Assembly: GCF_027942865.1 (NCBI RefSeq)
Contig: NC_134524.1
Coordinates: 6,807,536-6,871,535 of the forward strand
Direction: 5' to 3'
DNA length: 64,000 bases
From: Odontesthes bonariensis
Taxonomy: Eukaryota; Chordata; Actinopteri; Atheriniformes; Atherinopsidae
Part shown: positions 4,301-57,194 of the stretch, in pieces
Position numbering within the stretch: the stretch's first letter is position 1
Layout: every line of letters starts with the position of its first letter
Translations under genes and position numbers: made by a program
The notes under the pieces: model-generated
What the model saw: only the letters and a program-made list of their open reading frames with translations
Told to the model about the DNA's origin: nothing
The model's database searches: none

Positions 4301-7300
4301 CCCCACCTCGTTCATCACACACTCCTCCCTCTCCGTCGCATCATCCAGAAACACAGCATCAGCTGGTTGGCAGAAAAAAAAGCCAAACTTAGCGTTCAAA
4401 AAAAAGGACAAACGAAACTCGTCCAAAAAGCTCTGAACGAACCTGCCGCCCAGGGATTGAAGAGGATGTAAAGATCTCGGTTCTTGTCCCGCTTGGTCCT
4501 GCGGATGCCGAAAGGCGTCAGCACGGCCACGTACATGTGATATTTCCCCACGATGCAGTCCGCCACGGGGGTGATGCCCATGGTGACCATGTTCTCAGAG
4601 GTCTCTGTGATGCGGCCTTCCCAGGTGCCCTGAGGCTCCTTTTGGGGGAAGACGGGAGCGTAGGTGCCCTTGCTGAACTGAGGGCTGGAGCCTGAGCAAA
4701 CAGGAAGCATCAGCTGGTTTATGTAAATGAAAACAATCAGTTAAATGGCAAAGTGAGGCGGGAAAGGTTACCGAATTAAAATATTATAGAATATATAACA
4801 CTGCTGTAGCATATGTATCACCAGTACACACTGTTTACACTACTGGACCAGTTCTAGGTTCTAATGGAGTGGGGGGTAACAAATAAAACTGAGCCAGAGA
4901 CCAGGTACTTTAAATGCAATAACCTCTCTAGTGGAAATAAACAACAGTGAAACACACATGCCATTTCGACAACCTGCAGGCATGAACAATAAATCTCTTT
5001 TTCCTCACCTCAGTTTTTTTCTAGGTTAGAGACAATTTAGTTCAGGTAAGCCACCGTAGTTAGATGGTTTATTTAGTTTAGATAGGTTAGTTATATTGGA
5101 CCGGTCTGTAACTATCCTATTTGAGAATAATCTATTTTAATTCAATATTCATCCTGAGTCAACTCTTTTCCTCTTCTCATTGACAAGAGAATAATCACAC
5201 CTTAATGAATCAAACTGAAGCATAACTCTTATACGAGTCTTAAATCGCTCTCTGGAAAAATATTCCTGCATTCATTTCTCTGCATACACGTTGTCAAAAC
5301 AGGGGTACAGCGCAAACGACCATGGATCTCTTAAAGGGACGGTATTTTATGTAGGCCTATTTTTAAACATTTCCATGAAATTATTATCACATCCTTTTTT
5401 AATTACTCTTATTTAATCATTTGTGACATTTTTAACCATTTTACCTTATTTATGCATCTAATTTAATTGTTTGTATTTATTCATATTTTATTGTGGGTTG
5501 CACTGATTAAATGCCACAGTTTATTGACCACCAAATGTAAGCGAGTCCATCTCACCAATGGCAAACTCCACAGCGAACTTGTCCTCATCGGGTTTGTAGG
5601 GACGGCTGAAGGTGATCTTGACCTGGAACTCCTGTCCTCTCCGTACGATAAGATAGTCAGATTGGTACAGCGTGGTGTGGTGCTCCAGCTTGTTGCTTTC
5701 GTCGGGGCCCTTCATCATGTCCACATCCCAGATGTCCAGATAATCTGAAGACAGAAACAGAGCGAAAAGTCTCCAAACCTGAAGACTGATTCCCATGAGA
5801 CAGCCTACAGTAAGCGAGAGGCAGATTTTTAGGGTGAGCTGGATTTTTCTCATATCTGTATCAGCTGTAGCTCGAGGTTGTCCTTTAATTGGAAAGTTGC
5901 TGGTTGGGTTGAAGAGTCGTTGGGGCAGGATATTGAACCCTCCCTTGTGAGATGTTTGGATGAAATGCAAACTGAATGCAGTAATATCATCACCAGATGT
6001 TCACTGGAAAAAAATCTAAATTACCAGGTATATTTGTCTCATTTCTAGTCAAATATCTCATTACACTTAATATAAGACACAACTGCCTAACAAGTACTAT
6101 TTCAGCCAGATATAGGGACCTGTTTGAAGACGATACATCTGGAATATCTTAAATGAAATTAAGTGAAAAAGTCTTGAAAACAAATTGTTTTGAGTCGGAT
6201 TTCATATGAAACAAGCTTTTTTTGACATTTGAAGAGGTTTTTAAGCTAATTTCAAGATCACTTTTAACTCAAAAGTCCTAAATATCACATTTTATTTCAA
6301 GAAATCTTGACAAGCCGATTTTCACTAGTTCCACTGGCAGATTTTTTTGCTTATTTCAAGCAAAAACGTCTTTTATTTGTTGTTTTTTTACTTATTTTTG
6401 TAGGGGCATTTTTTCCAGTGTTGTAGTTCTTTTTTTTTTTTTTACTTTTCCTGCTGCAGGAGGACGAGGCTCAGATGAGTTAGAAGCTTTAAAAATGTAC
6501 GATCCAGCCGATTATGTGATGAGCTCCATCCTCCAGAGAGAAAAAAATGTAATAAAGCTAATTTAAATCTAGATATATTTTCTGCTTTTTAAGTAATTCA
6601 ATCCTGAATCAAACCCCAGTTTTACTCTCCTACATTAAAACCTCCTCCTTTGTGCACTTATGCCCAAGAATTCCAGGTAAATTTCCCCTAAACAATTAAA
6701 TTAAGTGGAATATTTGAGGGATTCGGCCACATGTTTGGGAATTGTTCCACTCTTATCAAACGCATCAGTGGCGTGACAGATCACTCGAGCATGCGTCTGC
6801 GGTTGTTTGCAGATGAAATTCCAGTCAGCGTGTTCATGAATTCCCGTCACATCTGATTATCTCTCAGTGTGGCGACACGCTGCAGGAAGTCAGCAGAATT
6901 TATCCAGTTTGGCCGTCCTTCAAGTGTCAGTCAGGCGCAAAAAAAGCTCCTGAAAACGGTGTCACTGACAGGAAAAGGACTTTATCTTCTCTAAGCAACA
7001 CAAACGGCCGCTCTGTCCTCTGAAGAAAGCAACTTTTCCTGGTTTCTACGTTCAAACTTTGTTGCATGTCACCATTTTTTTCTCAATACAATGCAGTGAA
7101 TTCACAAACTGCCTCACCTGTCATGGGGGGATATCCTCTCGGTCCGGGGGCACCGAAGTACTCTATCTCAGGGATGTCCGTTGTTTCGGTGTTGGAGCTG
7201 TCCGTGGGGCCTGAGGCGCGGCCACGGTTGCTCACCTTGGGAGGACGTCCAATGGGAGGAGGGGGAGCGGGAGAAGGGGTCGCCATGGCTCCTTGGTCAG

Positions 7301-22252: not shown

Positions 22253-24260
22253 ATGGAGGCGACAGATGAGAACTGCAGTCCAGCCACAGAGGCAGATGGT
22301 GGTGAGTTCAATGCAGATTTTTCCTGTTTAAATGCTGCAACTTGACTAAATGTTTGTACAGAGTTACATTAGTGTAGGTAATGTTTAAGTCTTAACTCCT
22401 GGTTGGAGTTTAATTGAAAAGTATTTTAAGATAAATGTATAATTTACCAACAAAGTCTAACTATACTCTCAAGAGGGAACTTTAGCACACGTTTTGGCTC
22501 CCAAGAGGGCACTTTAGCACACGTTTTGGCTCAGAAAGGGCACTTTAGCACACGTTTTGGCTCAGAGAGGGCACTTTAGCACACGTTTTGGTTCAGAGGG
22601 CACTTTAGCACACATTTTGGCTCCCAAGAGGGCACTTTAGCACACGTTTTGGCTCAGAGAGGGCACTTTAGCACACGTTTTGGCTCAGAGAGGGCACTTT
22701 AGCACACGTTTTGGCTCCAGAGAGGACATTTTAGCACGTATTTTGGCTCCCGAGAGGGCACTTTAGCACACGTTTTGGCTCAGAGAGGGCACTTTAGCAC
22801 ACGTTTTGGCTCAGAGAGGGCACTTTAGCACACGTTTTGGTTCAGAGGGCACTTTAGCACACATTTTGGCTCCCAAGAGGGCACTTTAGCACACGTTTTG
22901 GCTCAGAGAGGGCACTTTAGCACACGTTTTGGCTCCAGAGAGGACATTTTAGCACGTATTTTGGCTCCCGAGAGGGCACTTTAGCACACGTTTTGGCTCA
23001 GAGAGGACACTTTAGCACGTATTTTGGCTCCTGAGAGGGCACTTTAGCACACGTTTTGGCTCCAGAGAGGGCACTTTAGCACACGTTTTGGCTCAGAGAG
23101 GACACTTTAGCACACGTTTTGGCTCCCAAGAGGGCACTTTAGCACACGTTTTGGCTCCAGAGAGGGCACTTTAGCACACGTTTTGGCTCCCATGGAGGCA
23201 CTTTAGCATGCATTTTTGCCTCCCAATAGGACATTTTAGCGAGTTTTGGCTCCCAAGAGGGCACTTTAACACACGTTTAACAAAGTCTAACTATACTGTT
23301 GAAGATGTTAAACAACGGAAGAGAGCGTTTCAGCTGGAAACTGATGGCTTGATTTCTGACTGCTGTCACATTTCTGTGTTTCTGTGTCATGCAGCTTATC
23401 CGGTGCGATGTACTGAGGAAGTACTTCTCCCTTTCTTCACAGATGAGAGTCTGCAGGCCGCCATGGACTCACAGCGCCCCCCCATCTCCCCCAGCATCCC
23501 TCCTGCTGTCTCAGAACTCAGACTGGTCCTCCTGGGCAGGAAAGGAACTGGCAAGAGCGCGGCAGGCAACACGATACTGGGAGGAGCGGGAGGGTTCGAG
23601 AGCGGGAAGCCCACGGAGGAATGTGTGAAAAGGCGAGCTGACGTCTCAGGGAGAAAAGTCACGGTGGTGGACACACCTGGGTGGGAGTGGTACTACCCGC
23701 TGAACAGCACCCCCAACTGGGTGAGGAGAGAAACTCTGAGGAGCGTGTCGCTTTGTCCTCCTGGGCCTCACGCTGTGCTGCTGGTGGTGAGGTCCTGCGC
23801 TTCTGTGACGGACGACTACATCACAGAGATGGAGGAGCACCTGGAGCCTCTGGGAAAAGACGTGTGGGAGCACACCTTGGTGCTGTTCACCAGGGGGGAC
23901 GAACTGGGCCTGGGAACCATGGAGCAGCGAATCCTGACCAGCGGCTCGGGACTCCAGAGTCTCCTCCAGAAGTGTGGCAACCGATACCATGTTGTGAACA
24001 ACCGCAGCAAAGGAGACGGAGTACAGGTTAAAGCACTGATGAGGAAACTGGAGGAGATGGTGGAGGGAAAGGGCAACGGAAACAGTCATTTAGGGTTGGA
24101 CGGCGCTGTTCTGTCGGGTTTGGAGGCGGATGGAAAGAGGAGAGCCAGGGAGAGGAGGAAGAAGCAGAGGCAGATGGAGGCGCAGATGCAGAGAGGGACG
24201 CTGAGAGCTGCTCTCATGAGTGAGTACATGAAAACTTTTCAGTTCACGAGAAGGCTCTGA
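22253..24260 (+). CDS. GIMAP/AIG1-family GTPase (two coding exons, 288 aa)
   Basis: GIMAP proteins are septin-related GTPases of lymphocyte membranes that act in lymphocyte survival. Exon 1 (22253-22301) encodes MEATDENCSPATEADG with a GTGAGT donor. Exon 2 (23443-24260) follows a TTTCTTCACAG acceptor, and both borders are phase 1. The AIG1 domain starts near residue 41: P-loop GRKGTGKS (48-55), G3 DTPGW (93-97), the family's conserved box with LCPPGPHAVLLVV (120-132), and G4 TRGD (166-169). A basic, Arg/Lys-rich tail follows (near 255-270); no transmembrane helix is seen. The in-frame ATG at 23208 lies in minisatellite and is not used in this model. Intron 1 carries minisatellite array 3. The small exon 1 is supported by splice phase only. 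Confidence 0.85.
22470..23275. repeat. 31-bp minisatellite, array 3, in intron 1 of the first GIMAP gene
   Basis: About 26 copies of the same unit. The array is bracketed by direct copies of AACAAAGTCTAACTATACT (about 22449-22467 and 23278-23296), as if the array was captured into a single-copy site. Confidence 0.85.
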
Positions 24261-24325
24261 GGAAAAACGTGTTAAACTCCAAGAGCAGCACATCACATAA
24301 TCAATATTTTATAATGTCGTAAAAC

Positions 24326-25136
24326 TAGGGCTTGGCGAGTTAACTCGTTATTATCGCGTTAACTCGTTAATTATTTAATGTCGATAAATATTTTATCGCG
24401 CATTAACGCAGGTTTTATTTTATTCATTTATTTATTTTTTAAATTTTGGGGGGCTTTTGTGCCTTTAATGGATAGGAAAGTTCAGAGAGACAGGAAGCAG
24501 GGGGCAGAGAGAGGGGGAACTACACGCAGCACAGCGAGGACTATAGCCTCTTGTACATGGGGCGCCTGCTCAACCCACTAAGCCACGGACCACCCCTGTT
24601 TTATTATTTATTTTATTATTGTAAAAGTCTGTTGCTCACAGGCTTTTATTCTGTAAAAGTCTGTTGCTGTCTGCTGCGGAACAGGAAAAGAAAGTAATCG
24701 GCGGATCCACCAAACATGGAGAAGGGTACGGAACTTTTACTCGGCCATTTTCATTTCAAAGTTCTTCCAGACGGCGGAGTCGACAGAACCAAAGTCATCT
24801 GTAAACACTGCCAAGTTGAATTGTCTTCTCAGCGTAGTAGTTCCAGTCTAAAATATCACTTAAAGGCAAAACACACAACTGATAGCAGCAAGTCATTCAA
24901 GGAAACAGACAGTGGAGCGAGGCTTCTACATAAAAACTACAGAAAGATGCTGATGTTAAAAGTGTGTTTGCACAACAAATGTTATGGCACTTTCATTCAT
25001 ATGGCAGCACATTTAAAATAAAACTAAATGCTAAAAGCTATACACTACTTTTGGATTCATTTTTGGATTCTGCGTACAAATGTGATTAATCGTGATTAAT
25101 CAGGAAAATCATGTGATTAATTGTTGCCCAGCGCTA
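24326..25136 (+). mobile_element. hAT element with BED-finger ORF and nested SINE
   Basis: Starts TAGGGCTTGGCGAG and ends GTTGCCCAGCGCTA, flanked by an 8-bp duplication (cgtaaaac / cttaaaac). An ORF at 24716-25021 encodes a BED zinc finger (VICKHCQVELSSQ..SSLKYHLKAKH). No transposase core is present, so it needs help to move. A tRNA-derived SINE in minus orientation occupies about 24426-24596 and is flanked by GTTTTATT copies. A copy lacking the SINE is at 57778-58452. Confidence 0.8.
24426..24596 (-). mobile_element. tRNA-derived SINE nested in the hAT element
   Basis: The inverse of the 12318-12530 SINE (GGGGCGCCTGCTCAACCCAC head, GGGGGCAGAGAGAGGGGGAA body, CCTTTAATGG near the tail). It is inserted at the same hAT position as in the 12.3-kb copy. 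Confidence 0.65.
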
Positions 25137-25144
25137 CTTAAAAC

Positions 25145-25796
25145 TGAAATAATCCTGAATGTCACTTAAAGATCTTGTGTGCTGTTGGGTTTCTCCTTGT
25201 TCATTAGCAGCGCCTCAACTGTGAAGCCAAACTCGGTAACGTTGGGCTCTATAGGTGAGAAACACAAATACAATGAGCTTCCTCATCTGGGATAGGAAAA
25301 ACTTAAATCAATAACCACATAAAAATGACTAATAATGAGTCAGTACAACAGTTAATTCAACAGCTGGCCTCTTCAATCCGACTGTGACAGGCTTGGAAAC
25401 CTTTGGAAAATCTGTCGACCTGTTGTCGTGTTATTCATTCACAACCAGCACATGGAGTTTCACTCAGCTGTGCACTGCTTGTTGTATGCATGGTCTGATT
25501 TACAGTAAAGTTCACTTTGACTTTGAATGCGTATTGAAAGCACTTGTGCAAACTAAAGGTGCAACACAGAGTGTCTTCAATGCTTTTTCAATTGTTCGGC
25601 CTGCTCCTATTATTCCTGTAGTGTTGTCTGGCTTAAGGGTGGAGAAAGGTGGTGAGTAGGCAGCCTCAGCGGTCCTTTGAGGTGAGCATTTTGTTAAAAG
25701 TTGGTAATAATGTGGAGAAGTCAACTCTTAAGCACCCAGAGCCAGAAATCCAACAGCCTTTGTACAAAATGCTAAACTAAATACCACCTGGTTTCA
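25145..25796. other. Between the GIMAP genes; weak exon candidate at 25384-25650
   Basis: An ORF from ATG 25384 ends at a donor-like AAAGGTG|GTGAGT in phase 1, the same junction context as GIMAP exon 1. Its protein is not recognised. It could be an upstream exon of the giant GIMAP gene, but nothing else supports that. Confidence 0.2.
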
Positions 25797-25804
25797 CCCT
25801 ATGA

Positions 25805-26916
25805 GAGGGCTTGAAAACTATTATTTTTCAATCGTTCCGTTCCGAACAGTTCAGGCATGTTTAACGTTTTCGTTCTTGCGTTCCGCCACCAATATATCGT
25901 TCCTGAACCGGTTCGGAACGTAAAATATCGTTCGTTCTCATCGTTCCGGCAGTGTTTGGCGGGCCTATCAAGTCTACGTGTGTGGACTTTACCTTAGAAT
26001 AGACGTACTCATTAGTATTTGCCCTCGATTTACACCGTAGCTCTATGTTCAAAAATAATAAATCACCGGCAGCATCCAAAAACATTCAGATGGGCTAAAG
26101 CTGCGTCGACGTCACTTCCTTGATCTGGGAGCTTCAATGTAAGATGAGGGTTGATCTACTACTGTAGACAACAAAGTAAATGCTATATTCTACATGTTTT
26201 TTTTATGAATTTTTATGTTGTAGAGATGTGAAGTTATTTTATCAATGGAGAAATTGAGCAGCCTTGCTTTGTTGTCTACAGTAGTAGATCAACCCTCATC
26301 TTACTTTGAAGCTCCCAGATCAAGGAAGTAACGTCGACGCAGCTTTAGCAGCAGAGAAGCTATCAGGCTTGTGTTGATAATAATAAACTCCTGGACTATG
26401 TATAAACTTCAAAATGCATTGGTTTGTGAGTACAGACCATATTTGTACTACTGTAGAAGTTTGGTGTCATGGCATGTGATTTTAGTGTGGTAATTTTGGA
26501 GATACTGCCAGGGTCCGTTAGCGCTTGTACTAAGCTATTCGGGATAACTCAGTAACTCAGCTGATGTTCAGTCAATATCGAAAAAACTGCGGGTGGGCTA
26601 CTTGGCTGGTTCAAATGACCCTTGGGTGAATCTACTCCGAACCATCACTTTAACTAGTGAATAACTAGTGGATAACTAGTGGATAACTAGACTAAGTAGT
26701 GGATAAAGGAAGTGATTCGTGACAGTTGCCTGCATTGAGCCTAGTGGGCAGCGAAGTGAACGCACAACCGGAAGTAGTCTTTTTTTTTTTCCCCTGATAA
26801 AGGCTACGCTTTTGTGAAATTTTATAAAATATATAGAGAACAAAAAAAAAAAAACGTTATTAACCGGTTTTGTGGATTTCAGAATAACGTTTCTGTTCCA
26901 GAACAGTTGAAGACCA

Positions 26917-26966
<50 letters not shown>

Positions 26967-27041
26967 CCGTTTCCGTTCCTCGTAAAAATTCTGTTCGTTT
27001 TCGGTTTTCGTTTTCGTTCCTTGAACCGGTTCGGAGCCCTG
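25805..27041. mobile_element. hAT-type element with perfect 8-bp duplication
   Basis: Flanked by identical ccctatga (25797-25804, 27042-27049). Its ends read gAGGGCTTGAAAAC and, inverted, cAGGGCTCCGAACC. The subterminal regions are rich in GTTCCG/GAACGG modules. There is a CGTTTT microsatellite at 26920-26965. No transposase ORF. A fold-back element is nested inside at 26094-26349. Confidence 0.75.
26094..26349. mobile_element. Fold-back MITE with about 88-bp arms
   Basis: GCTAAAGCTGCGTCGACGTC through GTAGACAACAAAG is repeated inverted at 26263-26349 with few mismatches, around an AT-rich centre of about 80 bp. It lies inside the hAT element. Confidence 0.8.
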
Positions 27042-27049
27042 CCCTATGA

Positions 27050-28172
27050 TGACATCAGCTCCCCCAAACACTAACCCTGTGTCGTGGGTCTGAACAAAGG
27101 AACAAACAACATAAACTTTGACGAAAGAAACAACGTTTAAACATGCTCAAAACTCAATAAAGGAAACTTGGTAAACCCGTGAATGTAATCCCACTGAATA
27201 GCTTTGATGGTTACTGGAACGTCATGCCAACACAAACAAACCCGAGACAGTAAGTGGAGCGGTGTCGCAATAGCAATGGGAAACGACAGCTAAATAGCAA
27301 ATTTAACATAAAGATTGAATGTAAGGGTGAAGAGATGAGTTCTCACCTGCTTTGTCCCAAACTCGTTGCATAATGTGTGAAGACAGCAACACAAATAAGC
27401 ACAAATAACTTGTTTTAGTGTTGAAAGGACTTACAATCAGGAGCTGCTCGTGTTTTATTTGACCTATTCTTTTGTATAGCTAAGACTAGTTTAAATAAAT
27501 TAGCCATTTTTAAGGCCTAAGCCTGACAAATCATGAGTGACAACAAGGAAAAAAAAAAAAAAAAAAAAAGGAAAGTGTCGGGTTGGATGGGGCTCAAACT
27601 GAATTAAGGAATTAAATTCCAGGTGCCAACCTGGATGGGTCACATGCAGAAGAGTAATTTCGTGTTCTTCTTCATTCCAATAAAGTCTTAAATTAACTTA
27701 AAGATTATACCTTAACATGGTAAAAGTCAACACATTCTCACACCAGGATGATAAGAGTCGTATGCTGAGCAAATTTTAAAGGCATGACTTTCTTTTCTTT
27801 GGCAAAAAGTCCACATTTAGAGGTTGGAGGGGATGAAGGAAGGTTCTAAACAGCTAAATACTAAGTTGGAGAGTCAAGACCAGGTCCCATTCTGACAACC
27901 CGTGCCTTCAAATATATTTACGTTATGATGTGATCATAATATTCTCTGTAAGTCTGTTTCTTTATTCTTTCGCTGGCTTTATAAATCTTACAAACTACTT
28001 GGTTGAGATTGGTTTTGAAACGAGGAGATTTAGGTTTGAAAAGCATTGAAAATGTATTAAAATTGAACCTCAAAAAATATTTCATTTTCAGTTGCGTAAC
28101 CATTGAGGCTGGGTCAGACTTTATTACCACTGATGTCACGATGATTAAAAGCTGTGACCTTCTCCTTGCCAG
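27050..28172. other. Upstream region of the giant GIMAP gene
   Basis: No clear first exon was found here, although one must exist or be shared from upstream, because the large exon starts at a phase-1 acceptor. It contains a poly-A run at 27549-27570. Confidence 0.5.
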
Positions 28173-31100
28173 GTGATGGACCCCAGGGTTCGGACTTAGA
28201 CGCGCACCATTCCTTCTCCAAGGCTCCCCGGCGGCTTCCCGAGGTCAGACTGGTTCTTCTGGGCGAGCGAGAAACTGGAAAGAGCTCTGCTGGGAACGCC
28301 ATCCTTGGAAAAAAAATGGGCCTCTTCCAATCGGGGACGGTAACCGAGGAGTGCGTCCGTCAACAGGCCGAGGTGGCCATGCGGCTCGTGACCCTGGTGG
28401 ACACACCGGGCTGGGAGGGAGCAGGGACCGGGGCCACACCGGAGAGAGTGAAGAGGGAGATGGTCTGTAGTGTCACCCTGTGCCCCCCTGGGCCTCACGC
28501 CCTCCTGCTGACGCTGAGGGTGGACACTCTGGTGAGGGTCGGACACATCAGGGAGCATCTGGAGCTCCTGGGAGAGGGCGTCTGGAGATACACCATCTTG
28601 CTGTTCACCCACAGCGATCAGCTTCGAGAGGGGGTGGACATTGAGCAGCACATCCAGAGCGGAGGCAGGGAGCTGCAGTGGCTGCTGGAGAAGTGCAGGG
28701 GCAGGTACCACGTCATCAGCGGTGGAGATGGAAGAGGCGGAGGCGCCACCAAGGTCACGGAACTCCTGGAGAAAGTGGAAAAGATGGCGACGATGAACCG
28801 GTGCGAAGCTTTCTCCAGTTTGGTTCAAGAGGTCAGGGACCTGAGCCGACAAAGGAACGAAAAGTTCAGCCAGCGCCTGAAGGAGATCGGAGATAAGATG
28901 CTCCGTCAGGAGGCGGAGCTGAAGAAAATGAGAGACCGGGAGATGAAGAGCATCAGGTGGTTCTTCGACAGGAAGAAGAAGGTGAAATCGCCGGGGAAGG
29001 CCGACATTCAAAGGGAGGAAGAGGAGGATGAGGACAGGAGGGTCGGCGAAACGAAGAACGACATCGGCGAGCTGGAAGAGAGGATACGGTGGCTGACGGA
29101 GGAGAGAGAGAAAGAGATTCAGGATCTGAGTCTGGAAAATCAGAGAATCCGTGTGGCGTTGAACCAAAATCAGCAAGAACGGCACGAGGCGACGCTGAAC
29201 CTGGAGCTCAAAGAGAGAGAAATCGAGGAGCTGAAAGAGAGAACCGACGAGCAACAGCTGAAGCTTCTGGATCTCGAGCACGTTTGCGTGGAATCTGAAC
29301 GCGAGAGGAGACAGAGGGAGGATGTGTTCAGGCTGCAGACACAAGAATGGAGGAAAAAACTGCTGATGTTGGAGGAAACTGTAGAGCTGCTGAAGAGGGA
29401 GAAAGCAGAGCGCATCCGAGAGCTCGAACGTCTAAAAGTGGAGCTGGAGCAGACGAAAATGCACAATGAGAGATCTCTCGAGAGAAAAGAAGAAGAAAAA
29501 AACAGGGAGATGGAAGAGAGGGAGGAAAAACTGAAAAGAGAGATGGAAATCAGCCTGCTGGAAAGAGACGAACAGCGGGAGGAGCTTCTCCGTGATGCGA
29601 AACAACGGGAAAAGGACATGGAGAATAGATCTGAAGAGATCAAACAGCAGCATGAAAAAGAGATGGAGAGAAAAGTGCAGGAGAAAGAAACCCAAATAAA
29701 AGAGCATCAAGAGGAGATGGTGAGAAAAATCTCACAACAAAAGCAAGAAAGCGATAAGTTGCTGAAAGAAAAAGCCAACGAGTTGGAAAGACTCAAAGAA
29801 AAGCACGAGGACGATAAAAAGAAGACGCAGAGGCAGATTACTGAGCTGAAGGAGCAGTTTGCAAAAGAAAGGAAGGAACACCTTCAAGAGAAGAAGAGAG
29901 AGATGGCAGAGCTGGAGCACAGGTTTATTACGCAAATGGAAGCTAAAGAGCTGGAACAGGAAAAAGACAAAGAGACGATTCGACTGAATAACAAAAAAGA
30001 GGCTGAGAAACTAATTCAAGACAAAGAAAAAGAGACGGAGGCTTTAAAAGTGAAGCATGGGGTGGAGATGACAGCAAAACTAGATGAAATGGTGAAACTG
30101 ATGGAGGCAAAGGAAGCTGAACACCAGGAGGAAGTTGATAAGATCGTCAAACGAGACAAAGAGGACGCTGAAAAGGTCAGGCGACAGTTCACCGAAGAAG
30201 TGAGAAACTTGGAGAAAGAAAGACAAAGAGAGGCGGAAGAGCTGAAACAGCGGCTCGCCACCGAAAAGGACGAGCAACTGCAGGAAAAACTCCAACAGAT
30301 AAGAGAGTTGGAGCAAAAGTACTCTGCCCTCAGGGAGGAGATAAGACTGGAAGAGGCGGACATGTCGGAGAGACTGCAACAGAGAGACAGAGAGACAGAA
30401 GAGCTGAGGTGTCAGCTGAAGAATGAGAGAGACCACAGAGACAAAGATCGAGTGAGACACAAGGAGGAGATCAAAGAAAAGGTGGAGGAAAAGGACGGAG
30501 AGATGGAGGAGATGAGGCTGAGTGTCAAAGATATGAAGGAGAAAATGAAACGAAAGGAAGAAAAAGAGAAAGATTATTTAAATAAGATGAAAGCAATGGA
30601 GCAACAGCTGGAAGAGAAGGAAAAGAAAATTAAGGAGATGAAGGAAGAGCTGAAGAGAAAGGAGGAGAAAGAAACTCTTTATCTGGATAATAAAACAGAT
30701 GTGGAGCAACAGCTGGAAGAAAAAGAGAAAGAAATCAAGGAAATGAAGGAAGAGCTGCAGAGAAAGGAGGAAAAGGAAAAAGATTATTTAAATAAGAAGA
30801 AAGCAATGGAGCAACAGCTGGAGGAAAAAGAGAAAGAAATCAAAGAAAAGAAGGAAGAGCTGCAGAGAAAGGAGGAGAAAGAGAAAGATTATTTAAATAA
30901 GAAGAAAGCAATGGAGCAACAGCTGGAAGAAAAAGAGAAAGAAATTGAGGAGATGAAATCAAATATAAAGGAGATGAAGGAAGATCTGCAGAGAAAGGAG
31001 GAGAAAGAAAAAGATTATTTAAATAAGAAGAAAGCAATGGAGCAACAGCTGGAGGAAAAAGAGAAAGAAATCAAGGAAACGAAGGAAGAGCTGCAGAGAA

Positions 31101-34100
31101 AGGAGGAGAAAGAAACTCTTTATCTGGATAATAAAACAGATGTGGAGCAACAGCTGGAAGAGAAGGAAAAGACAATTAAGGAGATGAAGGAAGAGCTGCA
31201 GAGAAAGGAGGAGAAAGAAAAAGATTATTTAAATAAGATGAAAGCAATGGAGCAACAGCTGGAGGAAAAAGAGAAAGAAATCAAGGAAACGAAGGAAGAG
31301 CTGCAGAGAAAGGAGGAGAAAGAAACTTTTTATCAGGATTATAAAACAGATGTGGAGCAACAGCTGGAGGAAAAAGAGAAAGAAATCAAAGAAAAGAAGG
31401 AAGAGCTGCAGAGAAAGGAGGAGAAAGAGAAAGATTATTTAAATAAGAAGAAAGCAATGGAGCAACAGCTGGAAGAGAAGGAAAAGAAAATGAAGGAGAT
31501 GAAGGAAGAGCTACAGAGAAAGGAGGAGAAAGAAACTCTTTATCTGGATTATAAAACAGATGTGGAGCAACAGCTGGAAGAGAAGGAAAAGAAAATGAAG
31601 GAGATGAAGGAAGAGCTGCAGAGAAAGGAGGAGAAAGAAACTCTTTATCTGGATTATAAAACAGATGTGGAGCAACAGCTGGAGGAAAAAGAAAGGGAAA
31701 CAGAAGCAGCGAATGAACGATTAAAAGAGCTCGAGCAACAACTGCGGCAGACAAAAGAGGAAAAAGAAAAGGACAACTTAGACTGCAAGAAGAAGATGCA
31801 GCAAATTCTGGAGGAAAAGGGCAGAGAAGTGGAAAAGTTAAAGACGCACATCAGGGACGTGGATGAAATCCTGCAGAGGAAAGAAGAAGAGCGAGGGGAA
31901 ATCATCCTGAACCAAAAGAAAGAGGCAGAGCAGCGACTCCGGGACGCAGAGAGAGAGATGGAGGAGATGGAGAAAAAAGTGAGGGAAAAGGAGGCCGAGG
32001 TCGAAAGTGTGAAACAGCAGGTCGAGTCCAGGGAGAAAAAATGGAGGGAAGAGCTGAAGAAGAAAGAGGAGAGAGGAGCGAGCGAGATGAACAAGCTGAT
32101 AGAAATCATTGACAAGAAAAGCAAAGAAATAACACGAGCGCAGAGTCTACTCGCACAGAGAGACGGCGAGATTCAGGAGGCGAAAAGGCTCCTAAAGGAA
32201 GTGGAGGAGCTGAGAGAAAGCAACGAAAACAGGAGCATCAGTTTGGCTGAGCTGCAGAAGGAAAGAGAGGCCGAAATGATGGGAAAACTGCAGCAGAGAG
32301 ACGGAGAACTCCAGCACCTGCAGCAAAGAGAGCGAGAACGCGAGAAGGAGGTCGTCCTGCTGAGACTCACCATCGAGCAAACGAAGTCGGAGCTGAAGGA
32401 GCTCGCAGGCAAAATGGAAAAGGAGACGACCAGCATGATCCGGGAGTACGAGACGGAGATCGCCAGAAAAAACCAGGAGATGGAGACGATCGTTGGGGAG
32501 AAGGACGAAAGCCGGCGGGAGATTTCAGTCCTCGCGGAGAAATACGAGGAAAGTCAAAAGAGAGTAAAAGACCTGCGGGAGCAAAACGACAAGATGAGGA
32601 AAGAGACGGAAAGAGTCAGGATGGAGCGGGAAGAAGAAGTGAGGGAACATCTGCAGAGCATGGAGGCCGCTGTTAGAGAGAGAGGAGAGGAGGTGAGGGC
32701 GTTAAAGGAAGCCAATGATGAACTGAAAGTGAGGATGGAAAGGATGGAAGTGAGAGAAGGAGAAGGAGAGAGGAAGATAAACGAGCTGAGAATGAAGACT
32801 GATGAGGAGTCCCTGCAGAGGGAAGAAGAGCTGAGTAGAAAGGAAGAAGAGCTGAGCAAAAGAGGACACGACCTCCAGGGAAAGGAGGAGGAACTTGTTG
32901 AAAAGGAGGTAAAGTTGGGATTTAAGGAACGAGAGCTTCAAAAACTCCAAGCTGCTCTGGAGACGAGACAAAAAGAGAAAGAGAAGCAGGAGCAGGACGT
33001 GGAGCTGCGAGCGCAGAACCTCCGGAAAATGGAGACGGAGCTGGAGGCCTTACTGAGAGCTCTGGAGGGCAAACAGGAGGAGCTGAGCTCCCACGGCCAG
33101 GACCTCCAGAGGAAGGTGAGAGGCCTGAAGGATCAGGGCCAGGAGCTGAAGGACAGGGAGTGCTGCCTAAAGGAGGAGGAGCGGGAGCTGCTCAGCTGGA
33201 AGTCTGAGCTGCAGATGCAGAACCAGCACGTCAGCTGCACCACGCAGCAGCTGGAGGAGATGCGCCGAGGCATGGCCCTGCTGAAGGAGGAGCTCCAGGC
33301 CAAGGAGGGGAGTCTGAGGGAGTCTCTGAGGAGCATGAACACATGGGAGCAGAAGCTCAGAGAGCGAGAGGAGGAGCTCCAGGCCCAGGAGGGGAGTCTG
33401 AGGGAGTCTCTGAGGAGCATGAACACATGGGAGCAGAAGCTCAGAGAGCGAGAGGAGGAGCTCCAGGCCCAGGAGGGGAGTCTGAGGGAGCCTCTGAGGA
33501 GCATGAACACAGGGGAGCAGAAGCTCAGAGAGCGAGAGGAGGAGCTCCAGGCCCAGGAGGGGAGTCTGAGGGAGCCTCTGAGGAGCATGAACACAGGGGA
33601 GCAGAAGCACAGAGAGCGAGAGGAGGAGCTCCACAGGAGAGAGCGAAGAGATGAGAGGGTTTCCGTCCGTCTGCCGGCCGAAATCTCAGCAGATAACTCG
33701 CCTTTGATGTACCAGGAGGTCAGCGAGAGCAGGGGAAAGGGAAGAGGGGAAGAGCTAAGGGAGTCAGCTGCAGTGAGCGATAACTGCAGCGTCGAAACGC
33801 TGAAAGAAGCAGAAACAGAAACAGAGCAGCCTGAAGGAAACGAGGGCCCCACGGGGAGAGAAATCAGAGCGCTGCTACGTCAGAGTCCTGGAAGATCAAA
33901 CAGCGTCTCCCCCGGGCTGGATCTGAGGGTGATTGTCCTGGGAGAGACGTGGTCCTCCCGCTCCCCAGCCGGAGTCACCATCCTGGGTGGAGAAGCGTCC
34001 GAGGTCGGCGGCTCCAGCTTCAGGCCCTGGAGGGGTCAGATAGCCGGGAGGCGCCTCGCCGTGGCCGAGCCGCTCGGCCTGAGGTGGCGAGACGGAGCCG

Positions 34101-34474
34101 GTCCGGCTGAGCCGTCGCAGAGGCGGAGCATCGAGGACAGCGCGTCCTGGTGCCGCCCGGGCGCCCACGTGGTGCTCCTGCTCATGCCCGCCTTCCTGAC
34201 CTGCACGCAGAAGCGCAGGAGGGCCGTGGAGGAGCACGTGGGCCTGCTCGGGGAAGAGATCTGGAGGCGCACGCTGGTGCTTCTCACGTGGGGGGAAACT
34301 TTAGGAGAGAGCGCCGAGCAGCACATCCTGAGGAACGGGGAGCTGATGGCGCTCATCCAGAGGTGTGGGGGCAGGTACCACGTGCTGACCAGCAAAAGAA
34401 ACAACGCCGTGACCGAAGGCTTGTTTGAGAAGATGGAGGACATAGCTGCTGTGAACAGCAGGATGTCGGTGTAG
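28173..34474 (+). CDS. Giant GIMAP coiled-coil protein with a second, degenerate AIG1 domain at its C terminus
   Basis: One 6,302-base exon (acceptor CTTGCCAG at 28172, phase 1) encodes about 2,100 residues; ordinary GIMAPs have about 200-350 and GIMAP8-type proteins about 650. Numbered from 28154, the N-terminal AIG1 domain has P-loop GERETGKS (37-44), DTPGW (83-87), LCPPGPHALLLTL (109-121) and G4 HSDQ (153-156). From about 230 to 1,860 it is almost unbroken Glu/Lys/Arg coiled coil, with about eleven 35-residue repeats (nt 30570-31720) and four 28-residue repeats (33289-33630). From about 1,920 a second AIG1 fold begins LDLRVIVLGETWSSRSPAGV and includes CRPGAHVVLLLM and RCGGRYHVLTSK. Its P-loop Lys is Arg, the DTPG is EPLG, and the G4 Asp is Glu, so it should not bind GTP normally. 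It likely forms a long dimeric rod. The first exon is not identified; the exon 1 of the GIMAP gene upstream has a compatible phase. Confidence 0.85.
30570..31720 (+). repeat. In-frame 105-bp tandem repeats within the giant GIMAP gene
   Basis: About eleven units of 35 residues in two alternating types (KDYLNKKKAMEQQLEEKEKE and TLYLDNKTDVEQQLEEKEKE, both followed by IKEMKEELQRKEEKE). One unit carries seven extra residues (EMKSNIK). All lengths are multiples of seven, so the coiled-coil register is kept. Confidence 0.85.
33289..33630 (+). repeat. In-frame 84-bp tandem repeats within the giant GIMAP gene
   Basis: Four near-identical units of 28 residues (EEELQAQEGSLRESLRSMNT, then WEQKLRER), again a multiple of seven. 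Near-identical DNA shows recent expansion or homogenisation. Confidence 0.85.
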
Positions 34475-34594
34475 AGACTGAATGCAACGTGTAAAAACTG
34501 TGCATTTCCTTTGTTTATGTGAATATATTTGAGTAAATGAGGCAGATGTCTCCATGTCTACAACACATATCAGAGTTTATCTTGTTTTTCCTCT

Positions 34595-35320
34595 TCTTTG
34601 GGCGTCATGTGTAAAACAGGAAGGGCACTGAGTAGTAAACCGGTGCAAAATACACAAACTTTAAAGTATTTAAAGTACTTATAAGTACTAATAAAAAAAG
34701 TGTAATAGCTACAGATACTTGAGAATCATGCTTTGAGCTTTTTTTTCATTAAAAATCTTTTAATCTTTTCAATATTGGAATTTATTAAAAGAAAATAGAT
34801 TTTAAGTTAAAGTTATTTATTTAAAATGTTGTTGAATATATTTTTGTACATTTAAAAACTGTGTTTTCATAATTATCATCGTAACAGTGCACCAAAAGCT
34901 TATTTTTTAAATATATCCTAAAGGTTTTGCATATTCAAATTGGATTTTAACGTAATTTTAAGTGCATTTTTTACACTTTAGCACGTAAACTAATAACAAA
35001 GTAAAGTGTTAAGTTGCATTTAATACTCATTTTTTTTTAATAGAAATGTGCAAAAGTGATTGAGCGTGCTCAATTCTTTGGGCGTCATGTGTAAAACAGG
35101 AAGGGCACTGAGTATCATCCAGGGCATTAACCTGCTTTTTAAACCGGTGCAAAACACGAATAAGTATTTAAAGTACTAATAAATAAAAGTGTAATATCTA
35201 CAGATACTTGAGAATCATGCTCATGTCACACTTTGAGCTTTTTTTTTTCATTAATACTCTTTTAATCTTTGCAATATTACAACTTATTTGGAATTTATTA
35301 AAAGAAAATAGATTTTAAGT
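34595..35320. repeat. Tandem duplication with about 480-bp spacing downstream of the giant GIMAP gene
   Basis: TCTTTGGGCGTCATGTGTAA and about 200 following bases (through AGAAAATAGATTTTAAGT) occur at 34597 and again at 35076, diverged by small indels. The first copy overlaps the likely 3' UTR or flank of the gene. Confidence 0.75.
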
Positions 35321-35334
35321 GAAAATTATTTATT

Positions 35335-36765
35335 CAACCCTATGATAGGGGACATTTTTGTCCACTTGGGCTGTACTTTCTCCTGTAATTTCACACTGTA
35401 GATAGTGATACTCATCATATTTGGTCCAGTTGTGCATTTTTTACTATTTTCTTTTATTTCAAAGACACATCATATACAATGCAATCTTTCATTGTGTAGA
35501 AAAAAAACTCCTTAATTTCTGAAAAGGGACATGTTTGTCCCCTTTTAAAACGTGTGCGTGTGTGTGCGCGTGTGTTTGCGTGTGTGTGCGTGCGTGCGTG
35601 TGTGTGTTTGCGTGTGTGTGCGTGCGTGCGTGTGCGTGTGTGTGTGTTTGTGTGTGTGTTTGCGTGTGTGTGCGTGCGTGCGTGCATGTGTGTGTGCGCG
35701 TGTGTGTGTTTGTGTGTGTGTTTGTGTGTGTTTGCGTGTGTGTGCGTGCGTGCGTGCATGTGTGTGTGCGCGTGTGTGTGTTTGTGTGTGTGTTTGTGTG
35801 TGTTTGCGTGTGTGTGTGCGTGTTTGTGTGCGTGCGTGTGTGTGTGTGTGCGTGCGCGTGCGTGTGTGCGTGTTTGTGTGCGTGCGTGTGTGTGTGTGTG
35901 CGTGCGTGTGTGTGTGCGTGCGTGTGTGTGTGTTTGTGTGTGTTTGCGTGTGTGTGTGTGTGTTTGCGTGTGTGTGCGTGCGTGTGTGTGTGTGTGCGTG
36001 CGTGTGTGTGTGTTTGTGTGTGTTTGCGTGTTTGCGTGCGTGTGTGTGTGTTTGTGTGTGTTTGCGTGTTTGCGTGTGTGTGTGTGTGTTTGCGTGTGTG
36101 TGCGTGCGTGTGTGTTTGTGTGTGTGTGCGTGCGTATGTGTTTGCGTGTGTGTGTGTTTGCGTGTGTGTGCGTACGTGTGTATGTGTTTGTGTGTGTGTG
36201 TGTGCGTGCACGTGTGTGTGTGTGTGTTTGCGTGTGTGTGCGTGCGTATGTATGTGTTTGTGTGTGTGTGCGTGCGCGTGTGTGTGTTTGCGTGTGTTTG
36301 CGTGTGTGTGTGCGTGCGTGTGTGTGTGCGTGCGTGTGTGTTTGCGTGCGTGCCATAGTCTAATGCTGTATTCATTATAATGGATGTCTATGGGAGCCGT
36401 TTCTGTAATCTGCCATTGCAGAAAAACTAAAAAGCTGTAAAAACTGATGTTGTTGCTCATCAATGACATATCCCAGACCTAATAATCCCCCATAGAATAT
36501 TTCACTTTGCATTGCATATATTGAAAATACAGCAGTTTTTGTGTGAGTTTTTAAACAGAAATTGGTGTTTACCTCATATACACTGGTATTTAAAGGGTTA
36601 ATTTTTTGAAAATAATTGAAAACTTGGTGGTTATGATCAGAACTGAAGTGAAAGAAAAGATTAATGAAAAAAAAAGTGGAAAAAAATATTAACATATGGT
36701 GTTTTGGGGATCATTTTAGAAGGGGACAAAAATGTCCCTTTTCAGAAATTAAGGAGTTTTTTTTT
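35335..36765. repeat. Inverted-repeat element around a long TG/TGCG microsatellite
   Basis: CTCCTTAATTTCTGAAAAGG (near 35510) has its inverse at about 36738-36760, and GGGACATTTTTGTCC-like palindromes occur near 35349 and 36725. Between them, 35552-36350 is about 800 bp of TGTGTGCG, TGTTTGCG and TGCGTGCG units, so all its long ORFs are artefacts. Alternating purine-pyrimidine DNA of this length may form Z-DNA. Confidence 0.8.
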
Positions 36766-37939: not shown

Positions 37940-38984
37940 TCAAAGTCTTAAGATGTTTCTGATAGTCAGAACCGCTGCTATTAATGTTGCTAATACTAAT
38001 TCTCCTATTATCAGTACCAGTGTAGTGTTGAAGCCGATCCATCCTGGACTGTCTGGTTGTGGACTGTCAGGTTGTGGACTGTCTGGTTGTGGACTGTCTG
38101 GTTGTGGACTGTCTGGTTGTGGACTGTCTGGTTGTGGACTCTCAGTCGGTCTCTGAGGTTGGGAGAGATCAGCAGCTGCTGTAAAGGACACAAAATGAAG
38201 GTGATTTATGGAAATAGAAAACATTTATTTAGTAATTCTTCAGCTGCTGTCAGAGAAGCTGTTGTTTGAGATGTTTCCCTGCTTCTGATTCAGATAAATG
38301 CATCATTAGCAGGCTTTTGCAAAGCTCAACAATCTTTTAAAGAGATATATTTAATCTGAATCGGGTGTATTGAAGCAGGGAAACATCTAAAACCTGAAGG
38401 ATAGCAGCCTTCGAGGACCTGATGTGGACATGTGAACTCACCAGTGACGTTGAGTCGACATCTTCCAGAGCCGGAGCCATAATCAGTCTTCACTTCACAC
38501 AGATACAGACCAGAGTCCTCAGTCCTGAGTCTGGACACATTAAGTCTGATTCGTCCTTCTCTGAGGGCGTCTTTGTCACTCTGGACTCGTCCTGCAAACT
38601 CTTCATCCTGAGACTCTGACACCTCAGCACCTCCATGAACACGATACAGGAGTAAAACTCTGTGATCAGTTCTCAGTTCACAGAAGATATACAGGGAGCT
38701 CCAGGAGCTGTCAGGTTTGGTTGTGAACGTCCACTCCAGAGTGATGCTGTGCTTCTCCTCTGCCTGATAGGAGCTCTGTGGCACATTCACTACAAATGTT
38801 GCTGCTGAGGAGACAGAGAGGGACAGAGAGGAGCAGACACTCTGTAACATGTGGCAGCAATGATCTGCACTATCTAAGCAAACACAGAAGATGATCAAAG
38901 TGTTTGGACTTGATAAAGTGAAGATGGAAACTGACCACAGACACATGAAGTGAGGATGATGAGCAGCAGGATCCTGCAGATCAT
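37940..38984 (-). CDS. Ig receptor A: single V-domain, B7-like type I membrane protein (216 aa)
   Basis: Three coding exons with phase-1 borders: signal peptide 38984-38936 (MICRILLLIILTSCVC), V domain 38804-38442, and stalk/TM/tail 38178-37940; joined length is 651 nt. The V domain (FVVNVPQSSYQAEEKHSITL...EDSGLYLCEV) resembles B7/PD-L1-type V sets. The B-strand Cys is Trp (ITLEWTF), the C-strand Trp is Cys (LYIFCEL), and the F-strand Cys is kept. The stalk has six SPQPD repeats. The TM region (VLIIGELVLATLIAAVLTI) contains a Glu and the tail is very short (RNILRL). Two non-coding exons lie upstream. It is probably a cell-surface immune recognition protein; the ligand is unknown. Alternatives: a butyrophilin-like or CD276-like fish family. 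Confidence 0.8.
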
Positions 38985-39079
38985 CTTCTCCCTGTGAGAG
39001 GAGACAGAGGTGAAGAGTCGCCTCATTTTACAAACACAAACACACAATCATCAACAGCTAGAAGCAGAGAAACACATAC

Positions 39080-47462: not shown

Positions 47463-48450
47463 TTAGTTTGGATTAGTGAAAAAAACATGTCTCGAGACGA
47501 ATATAATCAGCAGAGCTACTACAACTGCTACTAATCCTCCTGTTAGTCCCAGTTTAGAGAAGAAGTTGACCCAGTGGAGTTCGATCCCTCCTGAACTGCG
47601 TGGTTGTGGACTGTCTGGTTGTGGACTGTCTGGTTGTGGACTCTCAGTCGGTCTCTGAGGTTGGGAGAGATCAGCAGCTGCTGTAAAGGACACAAAATGA
47701 AGGTGAGTTATGGGAATAGAAAACATTTATTTAGTAATTCTTCAGCTGCTGTCAGAGAAGCTGTTGTTTGAGATGTTTCCCTCCTTCTGATTCAGATCAA
47801 TGCATCATTAGCAGGCTTTTGCAAAGCTCAACAATCTTTTGAAGAGATATATTTGGCCCTCGAGGACTAGATGTGGACATCCCTGTACTGTGTGAACTCA
47901 CCAGTGACGTTGAGTCGACATCTTCCAGAGCCGAAGCCATATTCATTCTTCACTTCACACAGATACAGACCAGAGTCCTCAGTCCTGAGTCTGGACACAT
48001 GAAGTCTGATTCGTCCTTCTCTGAGGGCGTCTTTGTCACTCTGGACTCGTCCTGCAAACTCTTCATCCTGAGACTCTGACACCTTAACACCATCATACTT
48101 GAGTTCATACACTGAATGTATATCTCCCTCATCAGTTCTCAGTTCACAGGAGATATATGGGAAACTCCAGGAGCTGTCAGGTTTGGTTGTGAACGTCCAC
48201 TCCAGAGTGATGCTGTGCTTCTCCTCTGCCTGATAGGAGCTCTGTGGCACATTCACTACAAATGTTGCTGCTGAGGAGACAGAGAGGGACAGAGAGGAGC
48301 AGACACTCTGTAACATGTGGCAGCAATGATCTGCACTATCTAAGCAAACACAGAAGATGATCAAAGTGTTTGGACTTGATCAAGTGAAGATGGAAACTGA
48401 CCACAGACACATGAAGTGAGGATGATGAGCAGCAGGATCCTGCAGATCAT
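47463..48450 (-). CDS. Ig receptor B: single V-domain membrane protein (211 aa)
   Basis: Exons 48450-48402 (signal), 48270-47902 (V domain, 369 nt) and 47680-47463 (stalk/TM/tail); the joined frame of 636 nt is open. Same Cys/Trp exchange as A (ITLEWTF; YISCEL) and F-strand Cys kept. The C'-C'' region (TDEGDIHSVYELKYDGVK) is of the B/C type and two residues longer than in A and D. Stalk with two SPQPD units plus SPQPR. The TM region (LTGGLVAVVVALLIIFV) is followed by SRHVFFTNPN. The stop lies just inside the end of the gene, 22 bases from the hAT insertion. Leader exon 2 is at 48697-48546. Confidence 0.8.
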
Positions 48451-52266: not shown

Positions 52267-53209
52267 TCACACACGAATGTAAAGGTTCTGATGAGGCTGA
52301 CGGCAAAAGTAAATGAGCATGATATGCAGAATTACTGCTGCTACTGCTATCAGAACCATAACAGAACTGAAGCCGATCCCTGGTCTGTCTGGTTGTGGAC
52401 TCTCAGTCGGTCTCTGAGGTTGGGAGAGATCAGCAGCTGCTGTAAAGGACACAAAATGAAGGTGATTCATGGAAATAGAAAACATTTATTTAGTAATTCT
52501 TCAGCTGCTGTCAGAGAAGCTGTTGTTTGAGATGTTTCCCTGCTTCGGAATCAGATCAATGCATCATTAGCAGGCTTTTGCAAAGCTCAACAATCTTTTG
52601 AAGAGATATATTTGGCCCTCGAGGACCAGATGTGGACATCCCTGTACTGTGTGAACTCACCAGTGACGTTGAGTCGACATCTTCCAGAGCCGGAGCCATA
52701 ATCAGTCTTCACTTTACACACATACAGACCAGAGTCCTCAGTCCTGAGTCTGGACACATTAAGTCTGATTCGTCCTTCTCTGAGGGCGTCTTTGTCACTC
52801 TGGACTCGTCCTGCAAACTCTTCATCCTGAGACTCTGACACCTCAGCACCTTCATACCAAAGTTCATACACTGTATGTATATCTCCCTCATCAGTTCTCA
52901 GTTCACAGGAGATATATGGGAAACTCCAGGAGCTGTCAGGTTTGGTTGGGAACGTCCACTCCAGAGTGATGCTGTGCTTCTCCTCTGCCTGATAGGAGCT
53001 CTGTGGCACATTCACTACAAATGTTGCTGCTGAGGAGACAGAGAGGGACAGAGAGGAGCAGACACTCTGTAACATGTGGCAGCAATGATCTGCACTATCT
53101 AAGCAAACACAGAAGATGATCAAAGTGTTTGGACTTGATAAAGTGAAGATGGAAACTGACCACAGACACATGAAGTGAGGATGATGAGCAGCAGGATCCT
53201 GCAGATCAT
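52267..53209 (-). CDS. Ig receptor C: single V-domain membrane protein (196 aa)
   Basis: Exons 53209-53161 (signal), 53029-52661 (V, 369 nt) and 52439-52267 (stalk/TM/tail) join to 591 nt with no stop inside. V domain of the B/C type (TDEGDIHTVYELWYEGAE) with the same Cys/Trp exchange. The F strand reads DSGLYVCKV. The shortest stalk: one SPQPD, then RPG. TM region VMVLIAVAAVILHIMLIYF with a His inside, tail CRQPHQNLYIRV. Leader exon 2 is at 53456-53305; a leader exon 1 with TATA box was not found upstream, so its promoter is uncertain. Confidence 0.78.
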
Positions 53210-53456
53210 CTTCTCCCTGTGAGAGGAGACAGAGGTGAAGAGTCGCCTCATTTTACAAACACAAACACACAATCATCAACAGCTAGAAGCAGAGAAACAC
53301 ATACCCTCTCTTCTGTCTCTGATCCACCACAAGACAGGAGCTGACTGCAGGCTCAATGAGATCAACTGCTGCTCAGCAGGAAAGGTAGCAGCATGAGGGG
53401 GCGGAGCCAAACAGCTGGAATAAAGCAGGACAGCTTTCAGTAAGGCAGCCTTCAGT

Positions 53457-57099: not shown

Positions 57100-57194
57100 G
57101 TATGTGTTTCTCTGCTTCTAGCTGTTGATGATTGTGTGTTTGTGTTTGTAAAATGAGGCGACTCTTCACCTCTGTCTCCTCTCACAGGGAGAAG

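Follow-up and report, generated by a model that had tools for sequence, protein, structure and literature searches.

A predicted giant GIMAP-family gene with AIG1 domains joined through a long helical rod to a degenerate AIG1 domain

In this report we describe a predicted gene which, judged by its sequence, is GIMAP by family and unusual in both size and layout. The reading that we prefer, and to which we assign a probability of about 0.45, is a GIMAP-family gene of at least two coding exons, encoding a giant protein of approximately 2,352 amino acids with the order AIG1, AIG1, rod, linker and dead AIG1, which might serve as a GTP-controlled scaffold or tether. The many GIMAP loci and V-set genes of the genome suggest that it belongs to a fish. 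All parts of the putative gene are located on the forward strand of the window, i.e. the whole analysed stretch of 64,000 nucleotides, and are given below with the evidence used for their assignment.

23443..24219, +, candidate first coding exon (exon A) with a canonical AIG1 GTPase; Pfam, splice sites, phase
23517..24077, +, AIG1 domain of exon A; GRKGTGKS, DTPG and TRGD intact
24220..28172, +, predicted phase-1 intron from exon A to exon B; phase match, in-frame join
28173..34474, +, giant terminal exon (exon B) with AIG1, helical rod, linker, degenerate AIG1 and stop
28247..28834, +, second canonical AIG1 domain (exon B head); GERETGKS, DTPG, THSD; Pfam
28889..33640, +, charged helical rod, coiled coil in part; heptad test, no Pfam match
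30552..31692, +, 105-bp tandem repeat, 10.7 copies (TRF); nine 35-aa units of 5 heptads each, plus a 42-aa unit of 6
33285..33633, +, 84-bp tandem repeat, 4.2 copies, 98% matches (TRF); units of 28 aa (4 heptads)
33642..33916, +, Ser/Gly/Glu-rich linker with Pro; sequence
33920..34459, +, C-terminal degenerate AIG1 domain (the tail), pseudo-GTPase by motif
33941..33964, +, lost G1, GETWSSRS instead of GxxxxGKS
34067..34078, +, lost G3, EPLG instead of DTPG
34286..34297, +, lost G4 Asp, TWGE instead of TxxD

Open frame and domain layout of exon B

The frame of exon B is uninterrupted from 28145 to 34471 (+), which gives 2,109 codons from stop to stop, and its stop codon ends at 34474. In 300 sequences simulated by a first-order Markov model of matching composition, open stretches in the three + frames reached 291 codons at most. 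The trinucleotide cag at 28170-28172 forms a phase-1 acceptor and thereby supports the exon start at 28173 proposed in the preliminary description. The Pfam AIG1 model (cut-off 27 bits) matched both ends of the exon, with 109.3 bits (E 2.2e-31) for the head and 43.7 bits (E 2.6e-11) for the tail. Among the PDB sequences matching the head at E up to 0.001, eight of nine were GIMAPs, the ninth being a marginal small GTP-binding protein. For the tail, phmmer returned seven PDB sequences at E up to 10, every one of them a GIMAP, with GIMAP2 (2xtm) as the best (E 2.5e-7), and the nine best VIA entries were GIMAP1, 2, 4, 5 or 7. All GIMAP structures matching the domains of exon B are small human members. 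Taken by these matches, exon B appears as a two-ended unit with an AIG1 domain at one end, a rod, and a dead AIG1 domain at the far end.

The earlier view that a single exon encodes both AIG1 folds and the coil was right as to the one open frame and the two-ended layout, but the first ATG of exon B falls 3' of the P-loop, so this exon cannot be the whole coding region. No phase-1 donor scoring at least 5 was present within 400 bases past its first domain, and the frame continues into the rod. An internal splice detaching the tail was considered as well. Among the stronger splice sites of exon B, the donor at 33116 (phase 0) was the sole one scoring at least 8 and the acceptor at 33969 (phase 1) the sole pyrimidine-rich one passing; on these sites such a splice was rejected, since the two are out of phase and the acceptor falls where the P-loop ends.

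Exon A and its predicted join to exon B

The AIG1 frame holding exon A (23175-24257, +) is situated about 4 kb 5' of exon B and its Pfam AIG1 match reaches 117.5 bits (E 6.6e-34). The acceptor of exon A reads ...ttcacag/ATGAG (the slash marks the exon border), with two more phase-1 acceptor candidates upstream of it at 23230 and 23395, and the ATG at 23463 lies in the context GCCGCCATGG, which we call Kozak-like by comparison with the Kozak consensus. The donor, ATGA/GTGAGT at 24220, is of phase 1, as is the acceptor of exon B on the same strand, and the predicted splice between the two exons yields one uninterrupted frame of 2,352 aa. Against the join, the donor has A instead of G as the last exon base and scores 5/9 in a simple score. 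The best match of the exon B head in the genome is exon A (51% identity), and both group with one domain from contig C26 (support 98/88) in a tree built from 36 of 41 domains, five duplicates or fragments having been dropped.

A different reading would be that exon A and exon B are separate genes, namely a single-domain GIMAP and a giant with its own short first exon, as pictured in the preliminary description. It agrees with the in-frame stop of exon A at 24258-24260, only 38 bases past the donor, and with two alternative ATG exons with phase-1 donors, of 55 and 14 aa, found inside the predicted intron. By eye, however, the ATG contexts of these two exons are weak and no likeness to known sequence was recognised in either. 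Moreover, the donor of exon A stands 28 aa past its domain, a position similar to that in 8 of 11 AIG1 exons of other loci (20-30 aa past). In the same 11 exons, scanned with a loose consensus and without shuffle control, a phase-1 acceptor candidate was present at the domain start in nine and a phase-1 donor candidate after the domain in all, while seven of the nine donors scoring at least 7 were of phase 1. We regard two separate genes as rather unlikely.

Under the preferred reading of one gene, the polypeptide would probably carry two live AIG1 domains at its N-terminal end. The normal AIG1 domain described there before is therefore retained, as the exon B head is canonical, whereas the number of such domains is probably two instead of one. 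Two of the three AIG1 domains recognised by sequence share the frame of exon B, and the presence of the third in the same polypeptide depends on the predicted splice to exon A. The giant gene suggests that such genes are assembled from phase-1 exon modules.

Several other elements were noticed in the window. A BED zinc-finger fragment, which we take to be of hAT type, is located in the predicted intron (24698-25018, +; Pfam E 4e-8), and a second one at 57914-58234 (-) is near-identical to it by eye; both are probably transposon-derived. The 3' flank of exon B contains a diverged direct duplication (34594-34824 and 35074-35337, 77%) and, about 1 kb past the stop codon, a long CA-rich microsatellite (35450-36480). 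Closely alike V-set immunoglobulin exons are present at 38329-39027 (-), 47870-48379 (-), 52590-53252 (-) and 57152-57751 (+), the first with a Pfam V-set match (E 4e-7) and the other three assigned by eye. An exon for a transglutaminase N-terminal domain is found at 5524-6000 (-; Pfam E 3.5e-18).

The rod, the degenerate domain and their relatives in the genome

The rod comprises about 1,625 residues, of which 25% are Glu, 15% Lys, 10% Arg, 10% Leu and 0.3% Pro, and the Pfam scan matched no family in it. In an in-house periodicity test against shuffles, run without a coil predictor, 61% of 42-residue windows lay above the 95% level of shuffles. The 1,700 residues of coiled coil reported previously are thus to be read as a long helical rod of approximately 1,625 charged residues, heptad-positive in this share of windows only. 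The heptad signal is strong over two stretches, residues ~771-1166 and ~1629-1760, where nearly all windows pass, and weak over most of residues 243-640, the stretch directly after the head; at 309 to 440 the number of windows above the 95% shuffle level is zero, so a part of the rod may be a single helix. Coiled coil does accompany an AIG1 domain here, though it is weak just after the head, and in the second AF2 model the last helix of the GTPase domain extends into the rod, interrupted once over a short stretch. The probably flexible Ser/Gly/Glu-rich linker follows, and the heptad signal is absent from the last 126-residue window (from residue 1818).

The repeat units of 35, 42 and 28 aa are all multiples of seven, as expected if the heptad register is kept; TRF also reports weaker periods of 42, 51 and 54 bp with 55-67% matches, not all of which correspond to whole heptads, and in two of the three full 28-aa units Pro and Gly replace Ser and Trp. 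The nine 35-aa units differ by few amino-acid changes, with a pN/pS of 0.21, and none of 500 neutral simulations gave a value as low (minimum 0.41, median 0.70). The rod repeats look constrained, though conversion between units could lower pN/pS.

At the far end, motif alignment bore out all three replacements noted earlier, GKS by SRS, DTPG by EPLG and the G4 Asp by Glu, and the landmarks ILGG, CRPGAHVVLLL and RCGGRYHV were found in the tail sequence. The structural match of the C-terminal ~190 residues to AIG1, on which the preliminary description had staked its proposal, was found too, with GIMAP entries as the top matches. The tail is accordingly classed with the GIMAP fold; it reads as an AIG1 fold with nucleotide-binding motifs lost, and the term pseudo-GTPase refers to this motif loss only. 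Its AF2 model is weak (best pLDDT 64.8, the other four 57.7 to 41.7), and the alignment used included two live AIG1 rows. Outside the motifs 31 of 51 common columns are kept versus 7 of 17 inside, a modest contrast. A recent origin of the tail by copying of the exon B head was rejected, as the two share 38% identity, other AIG1 domains score higher, and they do not group in the tree.

Nine other places in the assembly join the coil to the second half of the tail, eight of them on C13 (21.4-29.6 Mb) and one at C24:6943034, 100 kb away. In each, the coil extends from window position 31458 or 31555 up to 31797 and is followed by the tail from 34218, the jump being identical in all, and over 225-257 bases they are 96.9-99.6% identical to the tail in the window, with 1 to 8 coding differences each. 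A coil-tail fragment with a shared internal deletion has thus multiplied, mostly on one chromosome. In L041, the one copy that was translated, coil and tail are in different frames. The eight C13 copies, from which two shorter matches on C13 at 72% were omitted, have a pooled pN/pS of 0.51, which does not look fully neutral and has no power for selection on the tail. The nine copies support the adjoining of coil and tail in the genome and have little bearing on selection.

This recurrence also argues against an assembly or collapse artefact in which unrelated pieces were joined in a repeat-rich region. Exon B does contain 84-bp repeats at 98% and the 105-bp array, which could favour such an error, but its 6.3-kb frame is unbroken, the window is without N, and nine further places carry coil and tail together; we consider an artefact very improbable.

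Another possibility is that the tail is in decay: loss of intervening DNA would have fused an AIG1 exon to the rod, leaving a relic that is translated and functionless. The loss of all three motifs fits this proposal, and so do the end branch of the tail, which is the longest (1.38) of the three window domains, its unsupported placement in the tree, the absence of the extension seen after the domain in exon A and in the exon B head, and the scattered partial copies of the region with their common deletion. On the other hand, the frame is still open, the Pfam match is clear at the E value of 2.6e-11, GC3 is 0.84 in the tail versus 0.31 and 0.38 in the flanks, and the domain is complete to its last helix. 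A functionless relic seems unlikely to us, and the preferred reading keeps the tail as a working part of the protein.

The 945-Mb genome was searched for AIG1 frames, with at least 152 matches and 150 of 226 candidates scored. Three of the matches listed had frames of at least 1,000 codons, namely exon B, a tandem of 1,001 codons on C7 and one mere run of N. Seven further loci had frames of 543-926 codons, in some cases truncated as fetched; six of them had no further AIG1 after the first and one had three tandem domains. In a non-random survey of 39 domains (41 from the fetched loci, two without the G1 stretch being dropped and near-identical copies kept), all three motifs were present in 25 and at least one was missing in 14, the tail included; all three were missing in six, namely the tail, one C17 domain and four domains from two tandem frames on C7. 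On C25, at ~3.9-4.5 Mb, 28 AIG1 frames of 240 codons, similar to one another, form an array on a single strand.

Degenerate and live AIG1 domains share one frame in three C7 loci, and on C17 a degenerate domain has an adjoining live AIG1 exon, so live-dead neighbours recur in this genome. The three-AIG1 frames of C7 (L004, L005, L053) resemble the giant GIMAP in that their degenerate domains share the frame with a canonical one, but these domains come first, no rod lies between, and the frames have 917-1,001 codons. In the C17 locus (L045), an exon with a degenerate AIG1 domain precedes one with a live domain, whose frame continues into charged sequence of helix-like character; candidate splice sites of phase 1 are present. 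Unlike in the giant GIMAP, the dead domain stands upstream of the live one, the sequence past the live domain is limited to ~295 residues, and no later AIG1 occurs in the 10 kb fetched. Among the loci fetched, only exon B has a dead AIG1 domain at the far end after a long rod. The preliminary description knew of no described GIMAP of such design; dead AIG1 domains as such are not unique.

Proposed function and comparison with known systems

In the mechanism that we propose, the heptad regions would pair two chains, possibly as a parallel dimer, and the live heads would bind GTP and associate via the GIMAP G interface. The dead domain, for which no nucleotide would be needed, could provide, at the far end, a constant surface for docking or assembly. 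The whole molecule might then act as a GTP-controlled scaffold or tether with a span of up to roughly 200 nm. At a helix rise of 0.15 nm per residue the rod would measure ~240 nm if fully helical, and the value of 200 nm is a guess at the upper end of the range. A hydropathy scan detected no membrane segment (top 19-residue value 1.34), so a role as membrane tether would require a partner; a pathogen coat is likewise conceivable. Going further, one may imagine a new class of immune GTPases in vertebrates, in which GIMAP dimers take the shape of a rod. Their heads would be switched by GTP, and the nucleotide-free pseudo-AIG1 domains at the other end would assemble septin-fashion with live GIMAPs, linking membranes or coating an intracellular target; at present we regard this as a speculative and quite unlikely extension.

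In titles and abstract starts, among the matches listed, no rod-shaped or two-ended vertebrate GIMAP was found, and titles and abstract starts likewise gave no GIMAP with a pseudo-GTPase; the title of a 2021 review calls the GIMAP family an incomplete puzzle. Such genes may well be already annotated in fish databases. Two known proteins invite comparison, GIMAP8, whose domains stand together in tandem, and GVIN1, which belongs to another GTPase family than GIMAPs.

Mammalian GIMAP8 has three G-domains in one polypeptide, like the predicted giant GIMAP, but unlike it no long inter-domain rod is mentioned in the relevant passages of the two sources (PMC4201521; PMC8201404). For the family in general, GIMAP2 is described as dimerising on GTP, and scaffolds have been proposed for membrane GIMAPs (excerpts of PMC8201404). 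GVIN1, a giant interferon-inducible GTPase reported to form a coat on bacteria, is alike in being giant, in connecting two domains of GTPase fold through a helical linker and in its intronless gene, whereas its longest ORF has 1,808 aa (excerpts of PMC11974893), and the only Pfam families in the exon B ORF are AIG1 and MMR_HSR1, in a library not confirmed to include a GVIN / VLIG-type model. Typical GIMAPs have 30-80 kDa, while AIG proteins of Biomphalaria glabrata reach 1,286 aa and five of their architectures have two separated AIG1 domains (excerpts of PMC7053062). The dual-AIG1 and AIG1 plus coiled-coil proteins of this snail share with the giant GIMAP separated AIG1 domains and coiled coils on either side, but a long rod ending in a dead AIG1 is not described in the text portion of that source, where the largest protein has 1,286 aa (PMC7053062).

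GIMAPs have been termed septin-like (excerpt of PMC9881219), and in septin pseudoGTPases the nucleotide function is lost while the assembly interface is kept, in changed form, and its assembly role is argued to persist (excerpts of PMC10731463). Septin pseudoGTPases are separate filament subunits with no giant rod, in which they differ from the giant GIMAP. Combining live heads with a dead copy on a single rod, the predicted protein would allow a direct test of the AIG1 fold as a GTP-independent assembly surface, as has been argued for septins.
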